64,000 bases of DNA, from the NCBI GenBank assembly GCA_900472785.1, contig UCJH01000053.1:1-64000 (forward strand). The letters are read 5' to 3'. Origin of the DNA: Hyphomicrobiales bacterium (GTDB lineage Bacteria > Pseudomonadota > Alphaproteobacteria > Rhizobiales > Rhizobiaceae). A program made the position numbers and the translations under genes. Under the pieces are notes generated by a model. It searched no databases. It was not told the DNA's origin and saw nothing but the letters and a program-made list of their open reading frames with translations. This document shows positions 1 to 9,851 of this stretch, in pieces. The first letter of the stretch is position 1, and every line of letters starts with the position of its first letter.

Positions 1-489
1 TCGGCCGGCGGTGGCGCGGTCGGAATCGACCTGATCAGGGCGTCCCTTGAAGCGGCAATTGCGATCGGCAGCGGACGCTGGTGCCTGATCACCGGCCCGA
101 ACCTTCGCCAAGCGGATTTCGACGCCATTTCGGCCGAGGCACCGGATCATGTCAGCGTCTTCCGCTTCCGCCGCGATTTTGCGAGCCTTTTGTCCGGAGC
201 CAGGCTTTCGGTTTCGCAGGCCGGCTACAACACCGTCTGCGACGTTCTGCGCGCCGGTTGCCAGTCGCTGCTCATTCCGTTCACCGCCGGCGGCGAGACG
301 GAACAGACGACGCGCGCCATCCGGCTGGAAAAACTCGGTCTCGCGCAGGTTCTCACCGAGGATCTCCTGTCGGCCGAAACCATGCGGCTTGCCATAGAGC
401 GGGCGCTTTCCAACAGTGCGTCAAGAACGCATGCGCTGGATCTGGACGGCGCCCATCGTACGGCAAAAATCCTGCGCGAACTGCTCTGA
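1..489 (+). CDS. Glycosyltransferase, GT28/MurG-like C-terminal domain (5' end outside window)
   Basis: Frame 1 is open from the first base to the stop at 489, so the gene enters from outside the window and only its last 162 residues are visible. The segment SQAGYNTVCDVL followed by LIPFTAGGETEQ matches the nucleotide-sugar-binding half of MurG-like family 28 glycosyltransferases, where a G/N-rich turn and a TxxxEQ segment hold the donor. It probably transfers a sugar in cell-envelope or polysaccharide synthesis. The acceptor cannot be deduced. A second glycosyltransferase and a polysaccharide deacetylase lie 8 kb away in the same block. Confidence 0.75.
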   Translation, partial: SAGGGAVGIDLIRASLEAAIAIGSGRWCLITGPNLRQADFDAISAEAPDHVSVFRFRRDFASLLSGARLSVSQAGYNTVCDVLRAGCQSLLIPFTAGGETEQTTRAIRLEKLGLAQVLTEDLLSAETMRLAIERALSNSASRTHALDLDGAHRTAKILRELL

Positions 490-521: not shown

Positions 522-1199
522 CTAAACAGTGCCGATCAGCATGAAACGCGTATATTTCTTCATCGGAAGCGCACCTGCATAGTCCAGATGGCTCAATCCT
601 GCCTGCGTGACAAAAGCCTCCAGCGAGGGCACGCAGTTGATATGTGTCGCCTCGCTGAAATAATCGTTGGACTGTAACAGGACACGGGTACCGACGGGCA
701 AAAGCGAAAGCCAGGCGCGCAGGTTGGCAATATGCTCGCAGCTGGTATTGACGACGAGATCCGCCTCGAGAGCGGCATAGTCCAGCGCATACATATCCCA
801 TGTCAGGGCCTGAAAGCGATCGCCGGCGCCGGCGTTCAGCGTTTTGGCCACCCCGGCGACGCTGTCGTCGATGTCGACGCTGTCGATCCGGTCAATCGAA
901 AAACGATCGTCGTCAAACAGCATGCCGGCCAGAACGCCATACCAGCCGCCCAGAATGACGATGCGCCCGAAGGCGCCGCCCAGGCTATCGAACAGCCTGT
1001 CGCGAGCCCAGACCTTGCAACCGACCTGCTTGTGATTGAAGGCATTGCCGACATCCGCCTCGGGATGCCGGGCAACCACCTCTGCCAATCCTGCGATCAG
1101 CGAACTGCCCGTATAGGCGGATAAGCCGCGGATGACATCAAATGCGCTATCGCGCCAATCTGTTGTGTTTGCTTCGTTTACGCGGGTGGTTTTCATCAT
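522..1199 (-). CDS. Rossmann-fold, SAM-methyltransferase-like protein
   Basis: This 225-residue protein looks like a class I SAM-dependent methyltransferase. A hydrophobic strand and loop (IVILGGWYGVLAGML) stand where motif I is expected, followed by DSVDIDD as the acidic end of the second strand. NTSCEHI and RVLLQSNDYF fit later strands of the fold. The glycine loop is unusual (GGWYG rather than GxGxG), so catalysis is not certain. I chose the methionine at 1199 (another at 1196) because the longer reading runs into the divergent gene. It faces another Rossmann-type gene with only 38 bp between starts, so the two probably share a promoter region. Confidence 0.6.
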   Translation of the reverse strand: MMKTTRVNEANTTDWRDSAFDVIRGLSAYTGSSLIAGLAEVVARHPEADVGNAFNHKQVGCKVWARDRLFDSLGGAFGRIVILGGWYGVLAGMLFDDDRFSIDRIDSVDIDDSVAGVAKTLNAGAGDRFQALTWDMYALDYAALEADLVVNTSCEHIANLRAWLSLLPVGTRVLLQSNDYFSEATHINCVPSLEAFVTQAGLSHLDYAGALPMKKYTRFMLIGTV

Positions 1200-1237
1200 G
1201 GCCGTGTTGTAGTCTGCCGTTTTCGGGAGCGCAAGGA

Positions 1238-1834
1238 ATGCAGGTGAAACCGACGGAAAGCTCCGCTTCAACGCAGGGCGGGACGGCAGGAAACCTGCCG
1301 CATCTGGCGGGCGTCGGCTCAGCCATACGCCAGGTCGTGGCGGCGCATTTTTTGCGGGATTGCCCGCATGTTCTGGAAATCGGCGGGCACGCGCAGCCGA
1401 TCACCAGCTATCTGACGCACAACCCGATCTCGGTTCTAACCGTCGATCCGAAAACCGATGCCTACGAAGCCGACATGTTGAACGGGCACCCCTGCTCCGT
1501 GCGTCACATGCCCCGGAAATTTCAGGAAATCGAGTTTAACTACACGCCCGGAAGCTATGGCCTCGTGCTGCTTGGCTATTCGCTGAAGCCGTTCGGGAAT
1601 CGCGACCCGCTCGGAAAGCTCTTGTTCTCGCTCATCGACAATGCCAAAACGGTGATCATAGACTATGCGCCTGAGTTGGAGCGGGCAGCGTCTCAGGTTC
1701 CTCATATCGTCAACCGCCCGACGCTTTCGCTGCGCTGCATGTTCGACCTGCGTCTGCATGACGAAGAGATTGCCGGGACACCCTATGCGGACCGGCGTTT
1801 CTACGTTCTGGACCCACACCCTACGGTACTTTGA
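1238..1834 (+). CDS. Rossmann-fold protein of unknown function
   Basis: This 198-residue protein has VLEIGGHAQPITSYL followed by SVLTVDPKTDAYEADML, a degenerate nucleotide/SAM-binding beta-alpha-beta unit, but no recognisable catalytic motif for a particular substrate. The ATG at 1238 is chosen because the preceding AAGGA and the start of similarity to a Rossmann strand fit better than the longer reading from 1142. Its stop codon overlaps the TTG start of the ABC protein, suggesting translational coupling, so it may serve the same process. It is divergent from the other methyltransferase-like gene at 522-1199. Confidence 0.55.
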   Translation: MQVKPTESSASTQGGTAGNLPHLAGVGSAIRQVVAAHFLRDCPHVLEIGGHAQPITSYLTHNPISVLTVDPKTDAYEADMLNGHPCSVRHMPRKFQEIEFNYTPGSYGLVLLGYSLKPFGNRDPLGKLLFSLIDNAKTVIIDYAPELERAASQVPHIVNRPTLSLRCMFDLRLHDEEIAGTPYADRRFYVLDPHPTVL

Positions 1835-4560
1835 ATTCATCCATGGAAAAACGCCTCGCCCGCTACATCTGGACCCACACCCGCACGCAGCAGCTCTGGA
1901 TTTTGCTGGTCGTCGCCGTCTCGATGATTCCCTACTTCCTGTCGTTCGACCTGCCCAAGCAGATCGTCAACGGCCCCATTCAGGGCGCCGGCTTCGATAC
2001 GCCCGGGGCTACACAGCTGTTTATGGATATCAATTTCGATCTGCCCTGGATCGGAAACGTCGTCCTGTTCCCGGGTTTGGAACTGACGCGCATGCAGACG
2101 CTGTTTGCGCTCAGCTTGGTCTTCCTGCTGCTCGTCGTCGTCAACGGCCTCTTCAAATTCTATATCAACACCTACAAGGGCCGGCTGGGTGAGCGGCTGC
2201 TGCGCCGCATCCGCTTCGAGCTGGTCGATCGCATCCTCCGGTTTCCACCAAACCAGTTCAAGCGGGTCAAGGGCGCCGAAATCTCCAGCATGGTCAAGGA
2301 CGAGGTCGAGCCGCTCGGCGGCTTTACCGGCGATGCCTTCGTTCAGCCGGCCTTGCTTGGGGGCCAGGCACTGACGGCCCTGTTCTTCATCTTCATGCAG
2401 AATTTCTGGCTGGGCATGATTGCCGCCGCCATGGTCGGCGTCCAGGGGCTGATCATACCGCGCATGCGCCGCCGCCTGCTGGTGCTGGGACGCGAGCGCC
2501 AGATCACCGCGCGCGAGCTTGCCGGCCGCGTCAGCGAGATCGTCGAAGGCATCGGCACCATCCACGCCTATGACACCTCCAACTACGAGCGTGCCGATAT
2601 TGCCCATCGGCTCGGCCGCATCTTCAAGATCCGCTACGACCTCTATCAATGGAAATTCCTGGTCAAGTTCATCAACAATTTCCTCGCCCAGGTCACACCG
2701 TTCCTGTTCTACTGCGTCGGCGGCTATCTGGCGCTGCAGGGGCGACTGGATATCGGCCAGCTCGTCGCCGTCATCAGCGCCTACAAGGATCTGCCCGGCC
2801 CGTTGAAGGATCTGATCGACTGGGACCAGACCCGCCAGGACGTGCAGGTAAAATATGTGCAGGTCGTCGAGCAGTTCACCGTCGACCGGATCATGGAGCC
2901 CTCCGTCCAGGTGATGGCGGCCGCGACGCCGGCAGCCCTGAAGACGCCACTGGCCGCGGTCAACCTGTCGCTTGCCGACGACAGCGGCGCAAGGCTGCTG
3001 GAACGCGTGTCGCTACAGATCAATCCCGGGGAAACCGTCGCCATCGTCGGCGGCGCGGCCGGCGGCGGCGATGCGCTTGCGGAAGCCTTTGCCAGATTGA
3101 TCTGGCCCGAAAGCGGCAAGATCGTCGCGGGTGGCGACGATCTTCTGGAACTGCCGGAATCGATTACCGGACGCAGCATCTCCTATGCCTCGTCGGACAG
3201 CTACTTCTTCTACGGCACGTTGCGCGACAACCTGCTCTACGGACTGAAACACGCGCCATTCAAGGCGGCGGTCTACGAGGGCACCGGTGCCACCCAGCGC
3301 AAGTGGGAGGTCTCCGAAGCCAAGATGGCCGGCAATCCGGATTTCGACACCCAAAGCGACTGGATCGACTACGAAGCCGCCAGCGCCACGCATTCCGACG
3401 ACCTGTTTGCCGCTATTCTTCCGGTCCTCGATACCGTGCAGCTATCGACGGATATCCTCGATCTTGCTCTGCGCACCACGGTCGATCCTGCCGAACATCC
3501 GGAGCTTGCGGCTCGTATCGTCGATATGCGCCATGCGTTGCGCAAGGAATTGGAGGACGAGGACCTGTCGAGCCTCGTCGTCTCCTTCGAGCCGGGAGCC
3601 TACAACACCGAGGCGACGGTCGGCGAGAATCTTCTGTTCGGCACGGCAACCGGGCCGGCGCTGCGCGGCAGGGCAATCTCGAAGAATGCCTATTTCCGTT
3701 CGGTCGTCGGCCGCACGGAACTGGACCGCGCGCTCTTCGACATGGGCTACAGCATCGCGGAAAACGCCGTGGAACTGTTCTCCGACCTGCCGCCGGACCA
3801 CCCCTTCTTCCAGCAGCTGACCTTCATGACCGCGGACGATATCCCGATCTACCAGCAGCTGGTGCAGAAGCTGAAAGGCAAGAGTCTGGCTCAGGCGTCG
3901 GAAGAGGAGCGGTCACGCATTATCCGGCTGAGTTTCCTCTATATCGAACCCCGCCACCGTTTCGGTCTGCTGACCGAAGAGCTGATGGCGAAGATCGTCG
4001 ATGTGCGCCGCGAATTCCACGACGGCCTGCCCGAGGATCTGCAGGGCGAGATCGAGCGCTACGATCCCGATCACTACACCGCCTCCGCCAGCCTGATGGA
4101 CAACGTCCTCTTCGGACGCATCAGCCACAAGCATGCGGATGGCTCCAAGCGTATCCGCACGATCGTCAGCGACCTTCTGAACACGCTCGGCCTGCATGAA
4201 CAGGTGCTGGCAATCGGCCTCGACTACAATGTCGGCGCCGGTGGCAAGCGGCTCACCTCTTTCCAGCGCCAGAAGCTCAATCTTGCCCGTGCTCTGGTCC
4301 GCCGCTCCGACTACTACATCCTGAACCGGCCGCTGCCGGGCCTCGATCATCGTTTGCAGGATGAAATCGCGCGTGATGTCCTGAAGCTGGTGAAACGCGA
4401 TGGCAGAAATCCGGCAGTCGTCTGGGTTCTGTCCAATGCCGGCCTATCGCATTTGTTCGATCGCATCATGGTGTTCGACCGGGGAATGCTGGTCGAGGAT
4501 GGAACGCACGCGACTCTTGTCGAGAATAACGGTATATTTAAGGAACTGGTGTCATCATAA
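1831..4560 (+). CDS. ABC exporter-type protein with degenerate ATPase domain and a large insertion
   Basis: 909 residues. Residues about 20-330 form a type IV exporter membrane domain with several hydrophobic spans. From about 365 an ABC ATPase fold begins (VSLQINPGETVAIVG), but the Walker A site reads GGAAGGGD (407-414), lacking the Lys and Ser/Thr. The signature is LTSFQ (808-812) instead of LSGGQ, Walker B is YYILNRPLPGLD (828-839) without Asp-Glu, and the Q-loop Gln and H-loop His are also gone. Some 330 extra residues sit between the Q-loop region and the signature. The segment after the Q-loop occurs three times (NLLYG 467, NLLFG 600, NVLFG 758). The reading frame is intact, so it is a maintained pseudo-ATPase rather than a pseudogene. 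It may begin at TTG 1831 (overlapping the upstream stop) or ATG 1843. Confidence 0.85.
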   Translation: MNSSMEKRLARYIWTHTRTQQLWILLVVAVSMIPYFLSFDLPKQIVNGPIQGAGFDTPGATQLFMDINFDLPWIGNVVLFPGLELTRMQTLFALSLVFLLLVVVNGLFKFYINTYKGRLGERLLRRIRFELVDRILRFPPNQFKRVKGAEISSMVKDEVEPLGGFTGDAFVQPALLGGQALTALFFIFMQNFWLGMIAAAMVGVQGLIIPRMRRRLLVLGRERQITARELAGRVSEIVEGIGTIHAYDTSNYERADIAHRLGRIFKIRYDLYQWKFLVKFINNFLAQVTPFLFYCVGGYLALQGRLDIGQLVAVISAYKDLPGPLKDLIDWDQTRQDVQVKYVQVVEQFTVDRIMEPSVQVMAAATPAALKTPLAAVNLSLADDSGARLLERVSLQINPGETVAIVGGAAGGGDALAEAFARLIWPESGKIVAGGDDLLELPESITGRSISYASSDSYFFYGTLRDNLLYGLKHAPFKAAVYEGTGATQRKWEVSEAKMAGNPDFDTQSDWIDYEAASATHSDDLFAAILPVLDTVQLSTDILDLALRTTVDPAEHPELAARIVDMRHALRKELEDEDLSSLVVSFEPGAYNTEATVGENLLFGTATGPALRGRAISKNAYFRSVVGRTELDRALFDMGYSIAENAVELFSDLPPDHPFFQQLTFMTADDIPIYQQLVQKLKGKSLAQASEEERSRIIRLSFLYIEPRHRFGLLTEELMAKIVDVRREFHDGLPEDLQGEIERYDPDHYTASASLMDNVLFGRISHKHADGSKRIRTIVSDLLNTLGLHEQVLAIGLDYNVGAGGKRLTSFQRQKLNLARALVRRSDYYILNRPLPGLDHRLQDEIARDVLKLVKRDGRNPAVVWVLSNAGLSHLFDRIMVFDRGMLVEDGTHATLVENNGIFKELVSS

Positions 4561-4665: not shown

Positions 4666-5127
4666 ATGCTTCTCAAGGATGAAGTTCAAATGTTGCGGCG
4701 GGTTCCGCTGTTTTCCGGGGTTGAGCCGGCAAAACTGAAACTGCTCGCCTTTACCTCCGACCGCGTCGGATATCGCGCCGGCGAAATCCTTTTCCGTCAA
4801 GGCGATTCCGGCGATGCCGCCTATGTCGTCCTCACCGGCCGGGCCGAAATCCTGGTCGATTCGCCGAGCGGCCAGATCAAGGTCGCGGAAGTCGAGAACA
4901 ACGCCATCGTCGGTGAAATCGCCATTCTCTGCGATGTCTCGCGAACGGCAACGGTCCGGGCGGTCACATCCATCGAGGCGCTGCGTATCCGCAAGGAACA
5001 TTTCATCAAGCTTCTGACGGACTTTCCCGAAATCACCATCGAGGTCATGCGCGTGCTTGCCGACCGCCTCAGCCATACGACAAGCGAGTTGACGGCGGCC
5101 CGCAGCCGGGCGCGTCAGGCCGAATAG
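4666..5127 (+). CDS. Stand-alone cyclic-nucleotide-binding domain protein
   Basis: 153 residues, essentially one CAP_ED domain. The phosphate-binding cassette is present as GEIAILCDVSRTATV (83-97), with Glu84 and Arg93 in the positions that hold the ribose and cyclic phosphate in CRP/PKA-type domains. There is no DNA-binding helix-turn-helix after the domain; the last 20 residues are charged and helical. It is therefore a sensor or regulatory subunit rather than a transcription factor of the CRP type. It lies 105 bp after the pseudo-ATPase ABC gene on the same strand, and the two are probably co-transcribed. The obvious inference is that cyclic nucleotide binding regulates the ABC protein or a neighbour. 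Confidence 0.88.
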   Translation: MLLKDEVQMLRRVPLFSGVEPAKLKLLAFTSDRVGYRAGEILFRQGDSGDAAYVVLTGRAEILVDSPSGQIKVAEVENNAIVGEIAILCDVSRTATVRAVTSIEALRIRKEHFIKLLTDFPEITIEVMRVLADRLSHTTSELTAARSRARQAE

Positions 5128-5151: not shown

Positions 5152-6912
5152 CTATACGATTTCGCCGGTTGAAAGATCGACGCTGAAATTGCGTGACGGC
5201 AGGCCGGACAGGAATTTGCCGTATATGCGAAACAGCAGGGCAAATTGCGCCTGCGCGGCGCCCTCCTCTTCCCATGTGCCGTCCCGATAGAGCGCCGCGA
5301 CGACCGCGTAGAGAGCCAGGCTGTCGGCATCGATCCAGTCAAGAGCGAGTTCGCTCGCCATGCGCAGACGATACCAGTCCGCGAGGAACGTAATCATCGG
5401 CACCGCCATCATGGCTTCCAGGGTCGCACCATCGCGCCCGGTTTGTTCCAGCAAATGCTGACGCGTTTGCGATGCCGCCTGGAGTCTCTCGACGGTCGAA
5501 ATGACCTCCCGCACCGGAACGGATTGGCGTTCAAGTGCAAGAAGAGCAACGTCCCCCAGGCTCAACTTTTGAAAGAGAGAGGCGAGATCTCTCGGCCATT
5601 CCCGCTTCAGGAAGCGTCGGCCAACCAGATGGCCGAGATGCGCGTAGAGGAATGTCCCATAATCCTCTGCCTCCAGCATGCCACCCGTCTTGAGGCCGGA
5701 TCTCGACACTTCGGCCCGGTAGAGCGTCAGCAGTGTGGGATCAAGCGCCATCTCTTCAATCCCGACGGTCTCGATATGCAAACGTCCCGCCTCAGGCGTG
5801 ATAATCTTGTAGGCGCAGGGAAAGGCGACAAGCGACGGAACGCCGATATTGACCAGATAGCCGCCGTCCCGCCGCTCGCGCGCGGTATCGTTGACATGCA
5901 GGTGACCGCTGAAATGAATATTGATGCCAGCGCTCATCAGCGCGGTTGCCACATCCGACACGGGGATACGGTCCGAAAAACTGGTTCGGCCCATCAGAGC
6001 AAGCTCGTCGGCAAACGTGCCATCAAGCGGATCGATGGCGGGATAATGTGAAAAGGCCAGCAGGCATTTGCCCAGACGCTTCGCCCGGTCAGCAACGTCG
6101 CGCATCCAGTCGAACAGGAACTGCTTGTGATGCAGCATGGCGTTCCAGCCGGCCCCGGTGCTGTCGGCCAAATCTCCGCTTGCGCCGACCGCCACGCCTG
6201 AGACCGGCTCGAAAACATTGGCGTCGATCATCAACAGCCAGATGCCCGGAAACGGTTCCGTCAGGTAGGAAGCGTCCACGAGGTGACGGATCGTCGTCCC
6301 GTCGGCGGAGCGGACCTCGTAGCGTCGCGCCTCGATATCATCGTCTTCGCCGAAAGGCGTTTCCCAATGCAGATCATCGGTCCTGCGGAAAAAGCCGATA
6401 TCGGGCAGCGCCCGCAGTCCCTCGGGGTATCCTTCGCAATACATTCGCGGCGTGACCGTGGTGGTGTGCGCATGGGCATCGCTTGCCTCGGCGTCGCTGG
6501 TCACCAGTCTATAGCCGCCACTTTCTGTCAGGAACCGTTTCGACCGGTGGCGGCCATGCTCACCGAAGATGTCGTGGTTCCCGACGGTCGCGTAAAAACG
6601 CATGCCGACACGGGCGGAATAATCATCGAGAACACGCTTCACACCCATTATGGTCGCGACTTGCCCATCGTCGGAATAGTCGCCCAGCAGAACGACGTGA
6701 CGGATGCCGCGAGCGGCAATATCATCGAGTGTGAATCGGAGCGCACGGTCGCTTTCGTTGAAAACCCGCGTCGAACGCGCCGTATCGGCAAGCATGCGTA
6801 CAGCCAGGCGGTTGTTGCCGTCCGCAATTCCCTCGAAGTCGTAGTCTCCATGGAGATCATGGAAATGGGCATCCGCAACGACGGCGATCCGGGGGCTTTT
6901 CGAGGGCGGCAT
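5152..6912 (-). CDS. Calcineurin-like metallophosphoesterase
   Basis: This 586-residue protein carries the full metallophosphoesterase set: DAH (14-16), GDYSDDG (77-83), GNHD (111-114), a later FSHYP and SGHLH near the middle. These residues coordinate two metal ions in calcineurin-type phosphatases and class III cyclic-nucleotide phosphodiesterases. The family hydrolyses phosphomonoesters or diesters, and the exact substrate is not readable. The C-terminal 200 residues form an additional helical region not typical of the minimal enzyme. There is no signal peptide, so it is probably cytoplasmic. I chose Met at 6912 because it directly precedes the first beta strand (RIAVVADAH). It converges with the cNMP-sensor gene 24 bp away. 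Confidence 0.85.
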   Translation of the reverse strand: MPPSKSPRIAVVADAHFHDLHGDYDFEGIADGNNRLAVRMLADTARSTRVFNESDRALRFTLDDIAARGIRHVVLLGDYSDDGQVATIMGVKRVLDDYSARVGMRFYATVGNHDIFGEHGRHRSKRFLTESGGYRLVTSDAEASDAHAHTTTVTPRMYCEGYPEGLRALPDIGFFRRTDDLHWETPFGEDDDIEARRYEVRSADGTTIRHLVDASYLTEPFPGIWLLMIDANVFEPVSGVAVGASGDLADSTGAGWNAMLHHKQFLFDWMRDVADRAKRLGKCLLAFSHYPAIDPLDGTFADELALMGRTSFSDRIPVSDVATALMSAGINIHFSGHLHVNDTARERRDGGYLVNIGVPSLVAFPCAYKIITPEAGRLHIETVGIEEMALDPTLLTLYRAEVSRSGLKTGGMLEAEDYGTFLYAHLGHLVGRRFLKREWPRDLASLFQKLSLGDVALLALERQSVPVREVISTVERLQAASQTRQHLLEQTGRDGATLEAMMAVPMITFLADWYRLRMASELALDWIDADSLALYAVVAALYRDGTWEEEGAAQAQFALLFRIYGKFLSGLPSRNFSVDLSTGEIV

Positions 6913-7171
6913 TCTTTTTGCGTTTCCGTAAGCGAATTGACAACGGGTTTCGGTGCTGTGCCCTTCTGAACCACAGATCGAAAGAAAAAGCGAATTCGAC
7001 ACTCGCCTAACCTTGGCAGTTTGGCTAACATGGCAAAAATGAGGCGGCACCCGTGCCGGAACGATGCGCAAGAAACAAGTTAAAGCCCTGAAAGAAAAGG
7101 GATAATTTTGACCACCCGATAGATTGCAGAAAAGACGCCTGGAGCGGACTGGTCAGAGGCAAAGTGAGAGA

Positions 7172-8002
7172 GTGAACAGAAACGTGTTTCGGGTGCGGTT
7201 TTGGGGAGTGCGCGGCAGCCTGCCGGTGTCGGGCGCCGCATTCCAGCAGTATGGGGGCAATACGATCTGTATCGAGATGCGCTGTGGCGATCACCGGCTG
7301 CTTTTCGATGCGGGATCCGGCCTCATGCCGGCCGGGCAGGTTTTGAAGGCCGAAGGTGTTTCCGACTTCAACCTGTTCTTCACGCACTGTCATTACGACC
7401 ATATCATCGGCCTTCCCTATTTTCCGGCGCTTTTCGATCCGCATGCTTCGGTGGCATTGTGGTCCGGCCATATGGCGGGCCGGATGAGCACGCGCCAGAT
7501 GATCGGCGAGTTCATGCGCCCTCCGTGGTTTCCGGTGGAACCGGATATCTGCCGCGCGAGTATCGGCTGCATCGACTTCCGCTCCGGGGAGACCCTCTCC
7601 CCCTATCCGGATGTCGTGGTCCGCACCGGCAGCCTCAATCATCCGGGCGGCGCAATCGGGTACAGAGTGGAGTGGAACGGCCAGGCGGCGGCCGTGATCA
7701 CCGATACGGAACATACGCCGGGCATCCTCGACCCCGCCGTGCTCAACCTGATCCAGGATGCCGACCTCTTCATCTACGACTGCACCTACACCGATGAAGA
7801 AATGCCCCGTCATGTCGGCTACGGACACTCTTCCTGGCAGCATGCGATCCGGCTTGCCAAGGCAGCAGGCGTCAAGCGCGTTGCCTTCATCCACCACTCG
7901 CCATTGCGCACCGATGCGGAACTCGATGCGATCGGCAAGAGTGCAGGCCAGGAGTTTCCGGGCGCCTTTGCCGCGCGCGACGGACAGGTCATCGATCTCT
8001 AA
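7172..8002 (+). CDS. MBL-fold metallo-hydrolase, phosphodiesterase-like
   Basis: 276 residues starting at a GTG that immediately precedes the conserved first strand (FRVRFWGVRGSLP). The zinc signature THCHYDHI (71-78) gives His72, His74, Asp76 and His77; DTEHT and HHSP supply later metal ligands. The WGVRGS N-terminus is typical of the lactamase_B_2 group that includes cyclic-nucleotide phosphodiesterases and PhnP-like enzymes. Hydrolysis of a cyclic or diester phosphate is therefore the likely reaction; the substrate is unknown. It is divergent from the metallophosphoesterase with about 260 bp between starts and convergent with the polysaccharide deacetylase. Confidence 0.82.
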   Translation: MNRNVFRVRFWGVRGSLPVSGAAFQQYGGNTICIEMRCGDHRLLFDAGSGLMPAGQVLKAEGVSDFNLFFTHCHYDHIIGLPYFPALFDPHASVALWSGHMAGRMSTRQMIGEFMRPPWFPVEPDICRASIGCIDFRSGETLSPYPDVVVRTGSLNHPGGAIGYRVEWNGQAAAVITDTEHTPGILDPAVLNLIQDADLFIYDCTYTDEEMPRHVGYGHSSWQHAIRLAKAAGVKRVAFIHHSPLRTDAELDAIGKSAGQEFPGAFAARDGQVIDL

Positions 8003-8008
8003 GCGGCA

Positions 8009-8761
8009 TCAGCCTTCCGCAAGAATGTCGGTGACGGACGCCCAGCGGCAGGCCGGATGATGCGCCGTAACAGCAAAAAGCGTTTCCAGGAAATCCCAGA
8101 CCGTTTGATCGTGGACAAGGTGATGCGTCAGTATTCCGACAGTTCCGCCATGGGCAAAGACATGTTTCAACCGTGCGACGGTCTCGCCGACAAGAGCGCC
8201 GTGATCGCGGCCGCCGCGCGTTCCGTGCCAGTCCATGACGTCGACATGGGTGTTCACCATTCTGATCGGCGCCGGCTTTTCCGCACCATAGACGGACAGC
8301 GCGGCAAAGCCGATCTCTCCCAGTGAGGACAGCAAGCCGGCATCGATGCGGTTCCACGGCGGCACGAGAAGCGGTGTAAAGCGATTGCCGAAGAGATCGG
8401 CGAGCAGCGCATAACCATCGGCCAATTCGGCCAGAACAGTCTCCGGTTGCCGCGCCGGACCGCCAAGCTCCTGCTTTTTCCGGCCTTCGGCTGCGTGATT
8501 GATGTGCGCCCAGCCATGGACGGCCACCGCCGCATGGGAAACCTCCTTCAGACGATCCGCAAGCGCCGCGCCCGTTCCGGCCGGGATGACGGCAAGGGTT
8601 ACCGGAATTCGATATCTTCCTGTCACATCCAGCAACTGGTCAAGGGCTGCCGTCGGTACAATCGCATCGTCGTCCCGCAGCCAGAAGGTCACGGTTTTTC
8701 CCGCATCCCGCCAGCGGTTGAGTTCTGTGAGGAGCGGCGTCCAGAGAACATCACCCTTCAT
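8009..8761 (-). CDS. Polysaccharide deacetylase-family protein
   Basis: This 250-residue protein has the NodB-homology layout: VTFWLRDDDAI (the Asp-Asp metal/catalytic motif), VAVHGWAHINH (His pair), a PPWNRID segment matching the R/P-x-P-W motif, and GILTHHLVHD near the end. It would remove N-acetyl groups from an envelope or secreted polysaccharide. No signal peptide is evident, so it may act on a cytoplasmic intermediate. Its start overlaps the end of the upstream glycosyltransferase gene by 11 bp, which indicates co-translation and a shared pathway. Confidence 0.83.
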   Translation of the reverse strand: MKGDVLWTPLLTELNRWRDAGKTVTFWLRDDDAIVPTAALDQLLDVTGRYRIPVTLAVIPAGTGAALADRLKEVSHAAVAVHGWAHINHAAEGRKKQELGGPARQPETVLAELADGYALLADLFGNRFTPLLVPPWNRIDAGLLSSLGEIGFAALSVYGAEKPAPIRMVNTHVDVMDWHGTRGGRDHGALVGETVARLKHVFAHGGTVGILTHHLVHDQTVWDFLETLFAVTAHHPACRWASVTDILAEG

Positions 8762-9851
8762 GAACGATCTCCACATGCGTGCGCAGAATCAGGTCCAGCC
8801 GGGCTGCAGCCGTCGCCAGATCCCGCTCCTCGGCGACGAACCGTCGTGCTTCCCGCGCCATCCGTTGCCGCTCGGGCTCGTTCAGCAGCAAGCGGCGGAT
8901 CGCGTTGGCATAGGCACCGATATCCCCCGCGGGCGTCAAAAGCCCCGTCCCGTCGTGCACAACGACTTCCGGCACGCCGGCGGTCTGCTGGGCGATCACC
9001 GGAAGACCTGCCGCCTGCGCTTCGAGATAGGCAAGCCCATAGGCCTCGCCGCATCCGGGCCAGACATAGACTGCGCCGCGCGACAGAACTTGACCGATAT
9101 CGGCCGCCCCTTGTTCGCCATGCCATTCGATTCGATCCCGCGGAAAATCGGAGAACAGGGCCTCCACCTCCGCACGGCACGGTCCATCGCCAATCACCGA
9201 AAGCCGCCAAAAAATGTCCGGCAGCAGCCGAAGGGCGCTTGCGAGCATGCGATAGCTGTCCATCTTGTCGCCGGGGCGCATCATGGCGATCGCGATGAGA
9301 TGTCCAGGCTCGGCTTTCGGCTCTCTTTCAAGGAGTTCGGTCGCGTCGATGAAGGGAGGCAATATTGCCGTACGGGCGGCAGGCAGCGCTTCCAGGAGCC
9401 CTGCCTGATCGCGCCGGGTGAAGCAGATGTTGACGGCGGCCTTGTGGATCCCGCCCAGAACCGTTTGCTGGGCCGTTTTCCACGGCCCGATGTTGCGCCG
9501 GGGGGAATACGAGGCCTCCGCAGTCACATAGGCCACATCGAAACTGCGGGCGAGTGCCGGCCCGAGCAGGTCCGGAGCCTTGTAGTAGGGATGGTAGCAG
9601 AACCAGGCATCCGGCTTGCCCTCTTCCTGCCAGCGCTGCGCGATGCGCATCCGCTCCGCCTCAGCGGCCTTTTCCATTTCCAAAGCGTGCTCGGGGGACG
9701 GCACCTTGGAGAAGGTCCGCAGTTCGGAGATGACCTCGACCTCGTGGCCCGACCGGCGAAGAGCTGCAATGACAAGACGCGCCATCAGCCTGTCGCCGGA
9801 AGGAACAGGATGATGCGGAGACTTCAGCGGCGAATGGAACGCGATCTTCAT
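8751..9851 (-). CDS. Glycosyltransferase family 4
   Basis: This 366-residue GT-B glycosyltransferase has an N-terminal acceptor domain beginning MKIAFHSPLKSP. Its C-terminal donor domain shows IAIAMMRPGDKMDSYRML, VIGDGP and EAYGLAYLE, the EX7E motif of GT4 enzymes that binds the nucleotide sugar. The following GLPVIAQQTAGVPEVV is also typical. It is the first gene of a two-gene unit with the polysaccharide deacetylase. The pair suggests synthesis and deacetylation of an amino-sugar-containing glycan, though no substrate can be read. Confidence 0.88.
   Translation of the reverse strand: MKIAFHSPLKSPHHPVPSGDRLMARLVIAALRRSGHEVEVISELRTFSKVPSPEHALEMEKAAEAERMRIAQRWQEEGKPDAWFCYHPYYKAPDLLGPALARSFDVAYVTAEASYSPRRNIGPWKTAQQTVLGGIHKAAVNICFTRRDQAGLLEALPAARTAILPPFIDATELLEREPKAEPGHLIAIAMMRPGDKMDSYRMLASALRLLPDIFWRLSVIGDGPCRAEVEALFSDFPRDRIEWHGEQGAADIGQVLSRGAVYVWPGCGEAYGLAYLEAQAAGLPVIAQQTAGVPEVVVHDGTGLLTPAGDIGAYANAIRRLLLNEPERQRMAREARRFVAEERDLATAAARLDLILRTHVEIVHEG

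Follow-up and report, generated by a model that had tools for sequence, protein, structure and literature searches.

A Conserved Family of Predicted Pseudo-ATPase ABC Exporters Accompanied by a Cyclic-Nucleotide-Binding Protein in Alphaproteobacteria

ATP-binding cassette (ABC) exporters are textbook ATP engines, and a conserved exporter whose ATPase motifs are broken raises the question of what such a protein can still do and what would control it. The question is posed here by an open frame in a 64,000-nt stretch of DNA (hereafter the window, positions 1–64,000 of contig UCJH01000053.1, assembly GCA_900472785.1) from a Hyphomicrobiales bacterium placed in the Rhizobiaceae. The frame encodes a type I ABC exporter with a degenerate and enlarged nucleotide-binding domain (NBD), and a gene for a stand-alone cyclic-nucleotide-binding domain (cNBD) protein follows it. 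Its identity as a conserved pseudo-ATPase ABC exporter is well supported by the family-wide comparison of sequences. Our preferred reading, to which we give a probability of about 0.4, is that control over the membrane domain has passed from ATP to a cyclic nucleotide, which perhaps gates an ATP-independent movement of a glycolipid or oligosaccharide. A first-pass annotation, made from the window sequence alone, had already pointed to the broken motifs, an insertion, and a segment present three times; the loss of the H-loop, the duplication of a module, the cNBD partner, the cluster of glycosyltransferase (GT), importer, and cyclase genes, and the existence of relatives without an NBD go beyond it. 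Among the open-access papers listed as matches in our literature search (subscription papers and preprints being outside its scope), we recognized none on this exporter family.

Catalytic motifs of the exporter and its family

The annotated frame of 909 codons is uninterrupted, and the exporter membrane domain that had been assigned to it is recovered by Pfam as ABC_membrane (PF00664; residues 91–316, E 1.6e-21), followed by a partial ABC domain (ABC_tran; residues 390–489, E 3.7e-10). Because Met5 is invariant across 46 aligned sequences, the ATG at 1843 (residue 5, giving 905 aa) is a likelier start than the TTG that opens the frame, and is probably the true one. In an AlphaFold2 model of the whole exporter (mean predicted local distance difference test [pLDDT] 79.7, predicted template modelling score [pTM] 0.74), the ABC NBD fold is present, the NBD core superposing on the ComA NBD (3vx4_D) with Z 25.8 and a root mean square deviation (rmsd) of 2.2 over 239 aligned residues. 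The exporter is single copy in its genome, where the 45 other matches are ABC-type frames of 21–36% identity. Two conserved stretches of the membrane domain, EVEPLGGFTGDAF (window 2305–2385, residues 159–185) and GPLKDLIDWDQ (window 2785–2826, residues 319–332), have a pLDDT below 50 in the model; similar stretches also occur in the NBD-less relatives described below.

All three motifs reported as broken proved to be so. Walker A reads GGAAGGGD (residues 407–414), with neither the lysine nor the S/T; the signature is LTSFQ (residues 808–812) instead of LSGGQ; and Walker B, ILNRPLP (residues 830–836), has lost both the aspartate and the catalytic glutamate. The H-loop is lost as well, Ser868 of VLSN (residues 866–869) standing where a histidine is expected. 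To place these losses in the family, we took a census of 211 rows, of which 173 were distinct and 171 had more than 780 aligned residues, the window protein included; the sample is weighted towards Rhizobiaceae (49 of the 171 share less than 45% identity with the window protein), and some of its rows are variants whose membrane half has diverged. Of these relatives, 35 have the Walker A lysine and 10 the S/T, 16 the Walker B aspartate and 27 the catalytic glutamate, and 18 the H-loop histidine, whereas LSGGQ or ISGGQ occurs in none of the 171. As many as 122 retain none of six catalytic features, and the maximum retained is four, in seven relatives. In an earlier set of 138 rows, 132 have E or D in place of the Walker A S/T, and the charge of these residues would be expected to repel phosphate. 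The lysine kept in 35 sequences, and the lysine, serine, aspartate, and glutamate kept together in three, suggest that catalytic loss may have been stepwise. The lineage of L192 and L193 (and L167–L169) has K and S in Walker A and D and E in Walker B, without LSGGQ and without the H-loop histidine; judging from these residues, it may bind ATP without hydrolysing it.

Could the frame simply be decaying, or be a sequencing artefact? Internal stops do occur in matching genomes, namely in G013 and G033 (among 40), G270 (among 98), and G629 (among 31), but they are few. The ratio of nonsynonymous to synonymous substitutions (dN/dS) against six relatives is 0.052–0.146 over the full length, with no single domain above 0.193, the stretch equivalent to residues 472–765 measures 294 codons in 43 of 46 sequences, and Asn600 and Asn758 are each found in 171/171 relatives. 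We therefore reject decay for the family and give it negligible credence. The motif losses and the insertion are conserved in homologues, as the first-pass annotation expected of a maintained gene; no homologue in the census has an intact set of motifs, and disrupted frames are rare. That purifying selection acts on the exporter family, and that motif loss is a family trait, is well supported by these comparisons, and a non-ATPase role, as the annotation proposed, remains the best reading of a family-wide loss under selection.

The family is widespread within its class. With the genome of the window counted each time, 40 of 61 genomes had a match at a threshold of E 1e-60. At E 1e-50, 98 of 289 genomes sampled from the class had one, about a third, and at E 1e-45 so did 31 of 398 sampled from the phylum, each of the 31 belonging to the same class. 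These counts may be low, because the genome searches score few candidates per genome. Plasmid records with a match number 262 at E 1e-60 and 338 at E 1e-25. In GTDB genomes, 318 loci were confirmed by scanning, the nearest relatives being those of Rhizobium sp. 32-5/1 and Pararhizobium antarcticum.

The window exporter shares the membrane domain family PF00664 and the NBD fold with type I exporters such as MsbA, Sav1866, TmrAB, and PCAT1; it differs from them in that none of its Walker A, Walker B, signature, and H-loop motifs is intact, two Q-loop/helical modules are added, and a regular cNBD partner is present. Nonconsensus catalytic residues in an otherwise intact fold are also found in TmrAB, TM287/288, BmrCD, and SUR/CFTR. 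These keep one consensus site per dimer, whereas the window exporter loses both composite-site halves in one chain. From the architecture of NBDs, a chain without its Walker and signature halves would make both composite sites defective, in a homodimer or in a heterodimer. This bears on the possibility that the protein is the inactive half of a heterodimer and receives its ATPase activity from a canonical exporter whose gene lies elsewhere. Heterodimers of which one site is degenerate are familiar (treated in a review, PMC7756269, available to us in part), and the genome holds other exporter-like frames. However, of 130 loci only 1 is flanked by an exporter frame (BLAST with the exporters of the same genome, E 1e-20, frames of at least 450 aa). 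As both composite sites would be spoiled in addition, pairing with a normal exporter is disfavoured, and we consider it improbable, although a partner could be encoded elsewhere in the genome.

The enlarged NBD and the membrane domain

Of the 240 residues of the ComA NBD, 239 align to residues 367–908 of the model, a span of 542 residues. The insertion noticed in the first-pass annotation is thus real, its size being nearer 300 residues than the roughly 330 proposed. A segment following the Q-loop had also been said to occur three times, with NLLYG at residue 467, NLLFG at 600, and NVLFG at 758, and profile comparison bears this out. We divided the region into three units, U1 to U3 (table 1), each of which carries a conserved N-(L/V/I)-L-(Y/F)-G with helices after it; Asn467 is kept in 166 of the 171 relatives. 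With hhalign profiles built from the 171 sequences, and with limits chosen by us, U1 matches U2 at E 1.2e-6 (probability 82%), U2 matches U3 at E 4.6e-12 (98%), and U1 matches U3 at E 2.6e-7 (89%), the E values being those of single comparisons. For each of the three pairs, all 100 column-shuffled controls scored below the real comparison. A less diverse alignment of 46 rows matched the first copy to the others over 16–22 columns only (E about 6e-4 to 9e-4). Because U3 extends into the signature region, it contains the native helical module, and the insertion thus consists of two extra NBD modules, each reaching from the Q-loop region through the helical subdomain.

Modelled alone, the insert reaches a mean pLDDT of 81.4 and a pTM of 0.65, and Foldseek found no match for it in the PDB at E ≤ 0.001. 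Weak structural matches were obtained with two ABC proteins, to residues 737–807 of IrtAB (Z 4.2, rmsd 2.5, 71 aligned) and 427–498 of YbtPQ (Z 3.9, rmsd 2.8, 71 aligned), both ranges presumably being the NBD helical region; the remaining matches, at Z 3.2 and below, are mostly to unrelated proteins. These structural scores are too low to stand alone, and the argument for repeats is carried by the profile comparisons. In exporters, it is the Q-loop region and helical subdomain that face the membrane domain's coupling helices. What has been multiplied is therefore the movement-transmitting part, whereas the ATP-burning part has been lost.

Evidence on the membrane domain itself comes from five relatives of 393–497 aa that consist of this domain only and score 268–308 bits with the family profile; in the four scanned against Pfam, ABC_membrane is the sole match. 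Inside the branch that joins the whole family in the membrane-domain tree (support 100/99), they group as a single clade (100/100), which may be either nested among the other members or sister to them; several canonical exporters sit on very long branches in this tree. No ABC ATPase gene is present in the listed stretches around the five. All lie near copper-resistance genes, each with a multicopper or copper oxidase along with copper-binding proteins or CopB (calls by annotation, and by Pfam for L198 and L199). Three matches of an NBD-less query contain stops (G208, G263, and G347).

A membrane domain working without ATP hydrolysis has a reported counterpart in MsbA-MD, an engineered MsbA lacking its NBD, which according to the part of PMC4979069 available to us moves ethidium and chloramphenicol by using the proton gradient. 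The truncation of MsbA-MD is engineered, whereas the loss of catalytic motifs in the window family is natural. Together with the natural NBD-less relatives, this report makes an ATP-independent function of the membrane domain plausible. The same two observations also favour an exporter driven by a proton or ion gradient, in which the dead NBD and the cNBD would be mere regulators. Against this, no ion-binding residue was identified and the MsbA case comes from one paper, and we regard secondary-active export as improbable.

The cNBD partner and the gene cluster

The stand-alone cNBD protein encoded downstream of the exporter has regular counterparts in other loci. Among the best 80 of the 318 GTDB-scan loci (65–93% identical), all 80 have a relative of it downstream of the exporter and on its strand, with a gap of 31–307 bases. 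A further 42 hand-picked loci contain a full-length exporter; 31 of them have the relative next to it downstream (gap −10 to 625 bases), and the other 11 encode the cNBD as a C-terminal fusion with the ABC protein. The 13 fused rows form one clade in the membrane-domain tree (97/96), and all have the cNBD in frame, L167 and L168 being cut by the end of the locus. The pocket is conserved too: in 148 distinct rows (profile matches in the fetched loci, 4 of 200 being gapped at the site before deduplication), the glycine is found in 148, E or D in 146, and the arginine in 147. These residues (GE...R) are presumably the ones that hold the cyclic phosphate and ribose. The central contrast, as far as conserved residues can tell, is thus between an apparently dead ATP site and an apparently preserved cyclic-nucleotide site beside it. 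The first-pass annotation had offered a receptor, a scaffold, or a regulated channel as guesses; the non-ATPase role behind them stands, and with the cNBD partner a regulated gate and a signalling scaffold become the likelier candidates.

A cNBD linked to an ABC exporter is also known from HetC of Nostoc, where the exporter can depend on the cNBD according to the part of PMC10986499 available to us. There the cNBD of HetC is described as N-terminal, and the protein as possessing a C39 peptidase and an ATPase residue that is essential. In the window family, by contrast, the cNBD lies at the C-terminus or is encoded by a gene of its own, and the ATPase motifs have been lost; Pfam, to E 1, finds ABC_membrane and ABC_tran alone in the window protein, hence no C39 peptidase.

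The wider neighbourhood was counted in 50 loci (L173–L222), which were hand-picked from the matches, not drawn at random, and include the five NBD-less and three variant loci. In one alignment, a frame of the neighbouring importer stood in for the exporter of some loci, and family rows alone were used there. Four glycosyltransferases recur (GTa in 26 of the 50, GTb in 26, GTc in 23, and GTd in 20), as do a histidine phosphatase (17), a polysaccharide deacetylase-family gene (16), and an oligopeptide-type importer ATPase (25, of which 20 at ≥ 45% identity; this query also matched unrelated ABC ATPases). An annotated locus of Rhizobium leguminosarum holds a cyclase, the importer, three GTs, the ABC gene, and the cNBD gene, and further annotated examples of the cluster are found in Mesorhizobium, Azospirillum, and Sulfitobacter. 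In the genome of the window, the cluster is split by a contig edge and continues on contig C97, with DUF3095, nucleotide-sugar dehydrogenase, cyclase, importer, GTa, and GTb genes and the first part of GTc; the edge cuts GTc, whose 5′ part (L258:15580–16299) ends contig C97. The coordinates of the exporter, its parts, and its neighbours are given in table 1. In the Mesorhizobium relative of the deacetylase-family gene, no Pfam match was found at E 0.01. A 230-codon frame at window 1142–1834 overlaps the exporter start and is partly antisense to 522–1271; it has no Pfam match above the cut-off and tblastn matches in 17 of the 80 loci.

In Sinorhizobium meliloti 2011, the relative of the exporter lies on pSymB at 841.7–844.4 kb, following an importer and three GTs. 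MsbA2 (SMb21191) of this species is likewise MsbA-like and beside glycosyltransferases on pSymB. The first gene of its operon, SMb21188, encodes an acyltransferase, and a ChvI-binding fragment is placed near 938 kb (PMC3687685, available in part); we rejected it as the same gene from operon content and approximate position, the positions coming from different strain records. SMb20813, termed an S. meliloti msbA homologue in the accessible text of PMC10945364, may be the relative of the window exporter.

Table 1. Coordinates of the Exporter, Its Parts, Neighbouring Genes, and NBD-less Relatives (window positions unless a locus is named)
Feature	Coordinates	Strand	Basis or remark
Degenerate type I ABC exporter	1831..4560	+	Open 909-codon frame, TTG start
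Membrane domain, residues ~5–350	1843..2880	+	Pfam, model helices, membrane-domain tree
NBD N-terminal part, residues ~365–475	2923..3255	+	Broken Walker A GGAAGGGD; NLLYG 467–471
Repeat unit U1, residues 447–580 (copy 1: Q-loop region and helical module)	3169..3570	+	hhalign
Repeat unit U2, residues 580–735 (copy 2: NLLFG 600–604)	3568..4035	+	hhalign
Repeat unit U3, residues 735–830 (copy 3: NVLFG 758–762; reaches LTSFQ 808–812)	4033..4320	+	hhalign
NBD C-terminal part	4318..4557	+	Broken Walker B ILNRPLP 830–836; H-loop VLSN 866–869
Stand-alone cNBD protein, 153 aa, pocket GEIAILCDVSRTA	4666..5127	+	Pfam cNMP_binding E 4.2e-21
Glycosyltransferase GTc, 3′ part	1..489	+	Glyco_tran_28_C type in R. 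leguminosarum relative
Methyltransferase-like gene	522..1271	-	Weak Pfam E 0.18; relatives in Mesorhizobium and S. meliloti clusters
Metallophosphoesterase	5152..7071	-	Relative in 32/80 loci (flanks ≤ 6 kb)
MBL-fold hydrolase	7124..8002	+	Relative in 49/80 loci
Polysaccharide deacetylase-family gene	8009..8776	-	Public annotation of relatives
Glycosyltransferase GTd	8751..9851	-	Family 4 per relative's annotation
NBD-less relatives	L179:8773-10011, L180:8416-9909, L181:8797-9978, L198:8531-9730, L199:8540-9781		

The presence of GT genes next to the exporter, a large cytoplasmic surface provided by the tripled module, and an NBD under selection despite lost catalysis are also what would be expected of a signalling scaffold, that is, a membrane anchor without transport that recruits or regulates the GTs or the importer when its partner binds a cyclic nucleotide. 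Such a pure scaffold is a serious rival, which we nevertheless hold to be unlikely: the membrane domain is well conserved (dN/dS 0.027–0.112, the lowest of four domains in three of six comparisons) and persists alone in five relatives, which suggests that it has an activity of its own.

Proposed control of the membrane domain by a cyclic nucleotide

The reading that we prefer, control of an exporter membrane domain by a cyclic nucleotide, would work as follows. The exporter would dimerize through its membrane domains, and the dimer would not split ATP. A cyclic nucleotide, supplied as a signal by the cyclase beside the cluster, would bind the partner, the enlarged NBD-like part would move as a lever, and the membrane domain would open or close. 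With less certainty, the membrane domain may pass a glycolipid or oligosaccharide made by the neighbouring GTs across the inner membrane, downhill or by means of an ion gradient. In this reading, the pseudo-ATPase character of the exporter is the firm part; the transported substrate and the gating by a cyclic nucleotide are what we infer from the partner and the cluster.

Several observations weigh against this proposal. The Walker A lysine is kept in a minority of relatives, together with S/T in five; three of these five (L167–L169) also keep the Walker B aspartate and glutamate, so that some family members may still bind ATP. Some fused members have an altered pocket (E changed to D, and the TA after the arginine lost), and L194, L195, and L197 keep the NBD and the repeats but no cNBD was found in 19 kb. 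In these three (L194:8434–11022, L195:8456–11302, and L197:6539–9586), the membrane half scores just 2–7 bits with the family profile. A conserved cNBD pocket would in any case indicate capacity only, and the cNBD of HetC is reported to bind ppGpp in the accessible part of PMC10986499, so that a cyclic-nucleotide ligand is not to be assumed here. A nucleotide cyclase is present in 9 of the 50 loci, a frequency that chance might account for, and GTa is absent from 24 of them, which implies that a glycan substrate would not be general.

A bolder proposal is that a second messenger has replaced ATP, cyclic-nucleotide binding to the dedicated cNBD driving the enlarged dead NBD to gate the exporter membrane domain. 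The family would then be a bacterial, exporter-derived counterpart of cyclic-nucleotide-gated channels, as a channel or flippase, with the NBD-less relatives as a side branch. We consider this somewhat unlikely as a whole.

A selected family in which the engine is lost while its transmission is kept and enlarged makes the ability of an exporter membrane domain to act without ATP directly testable, and the natural NBD-less relatives offer a second, independent test of such a function. The regular cNBD partner hints at the way in which regulation might take the place of fuel, and the cluster may represent a nontranscriptional output for the nucleotide cyclases of rhizobia.

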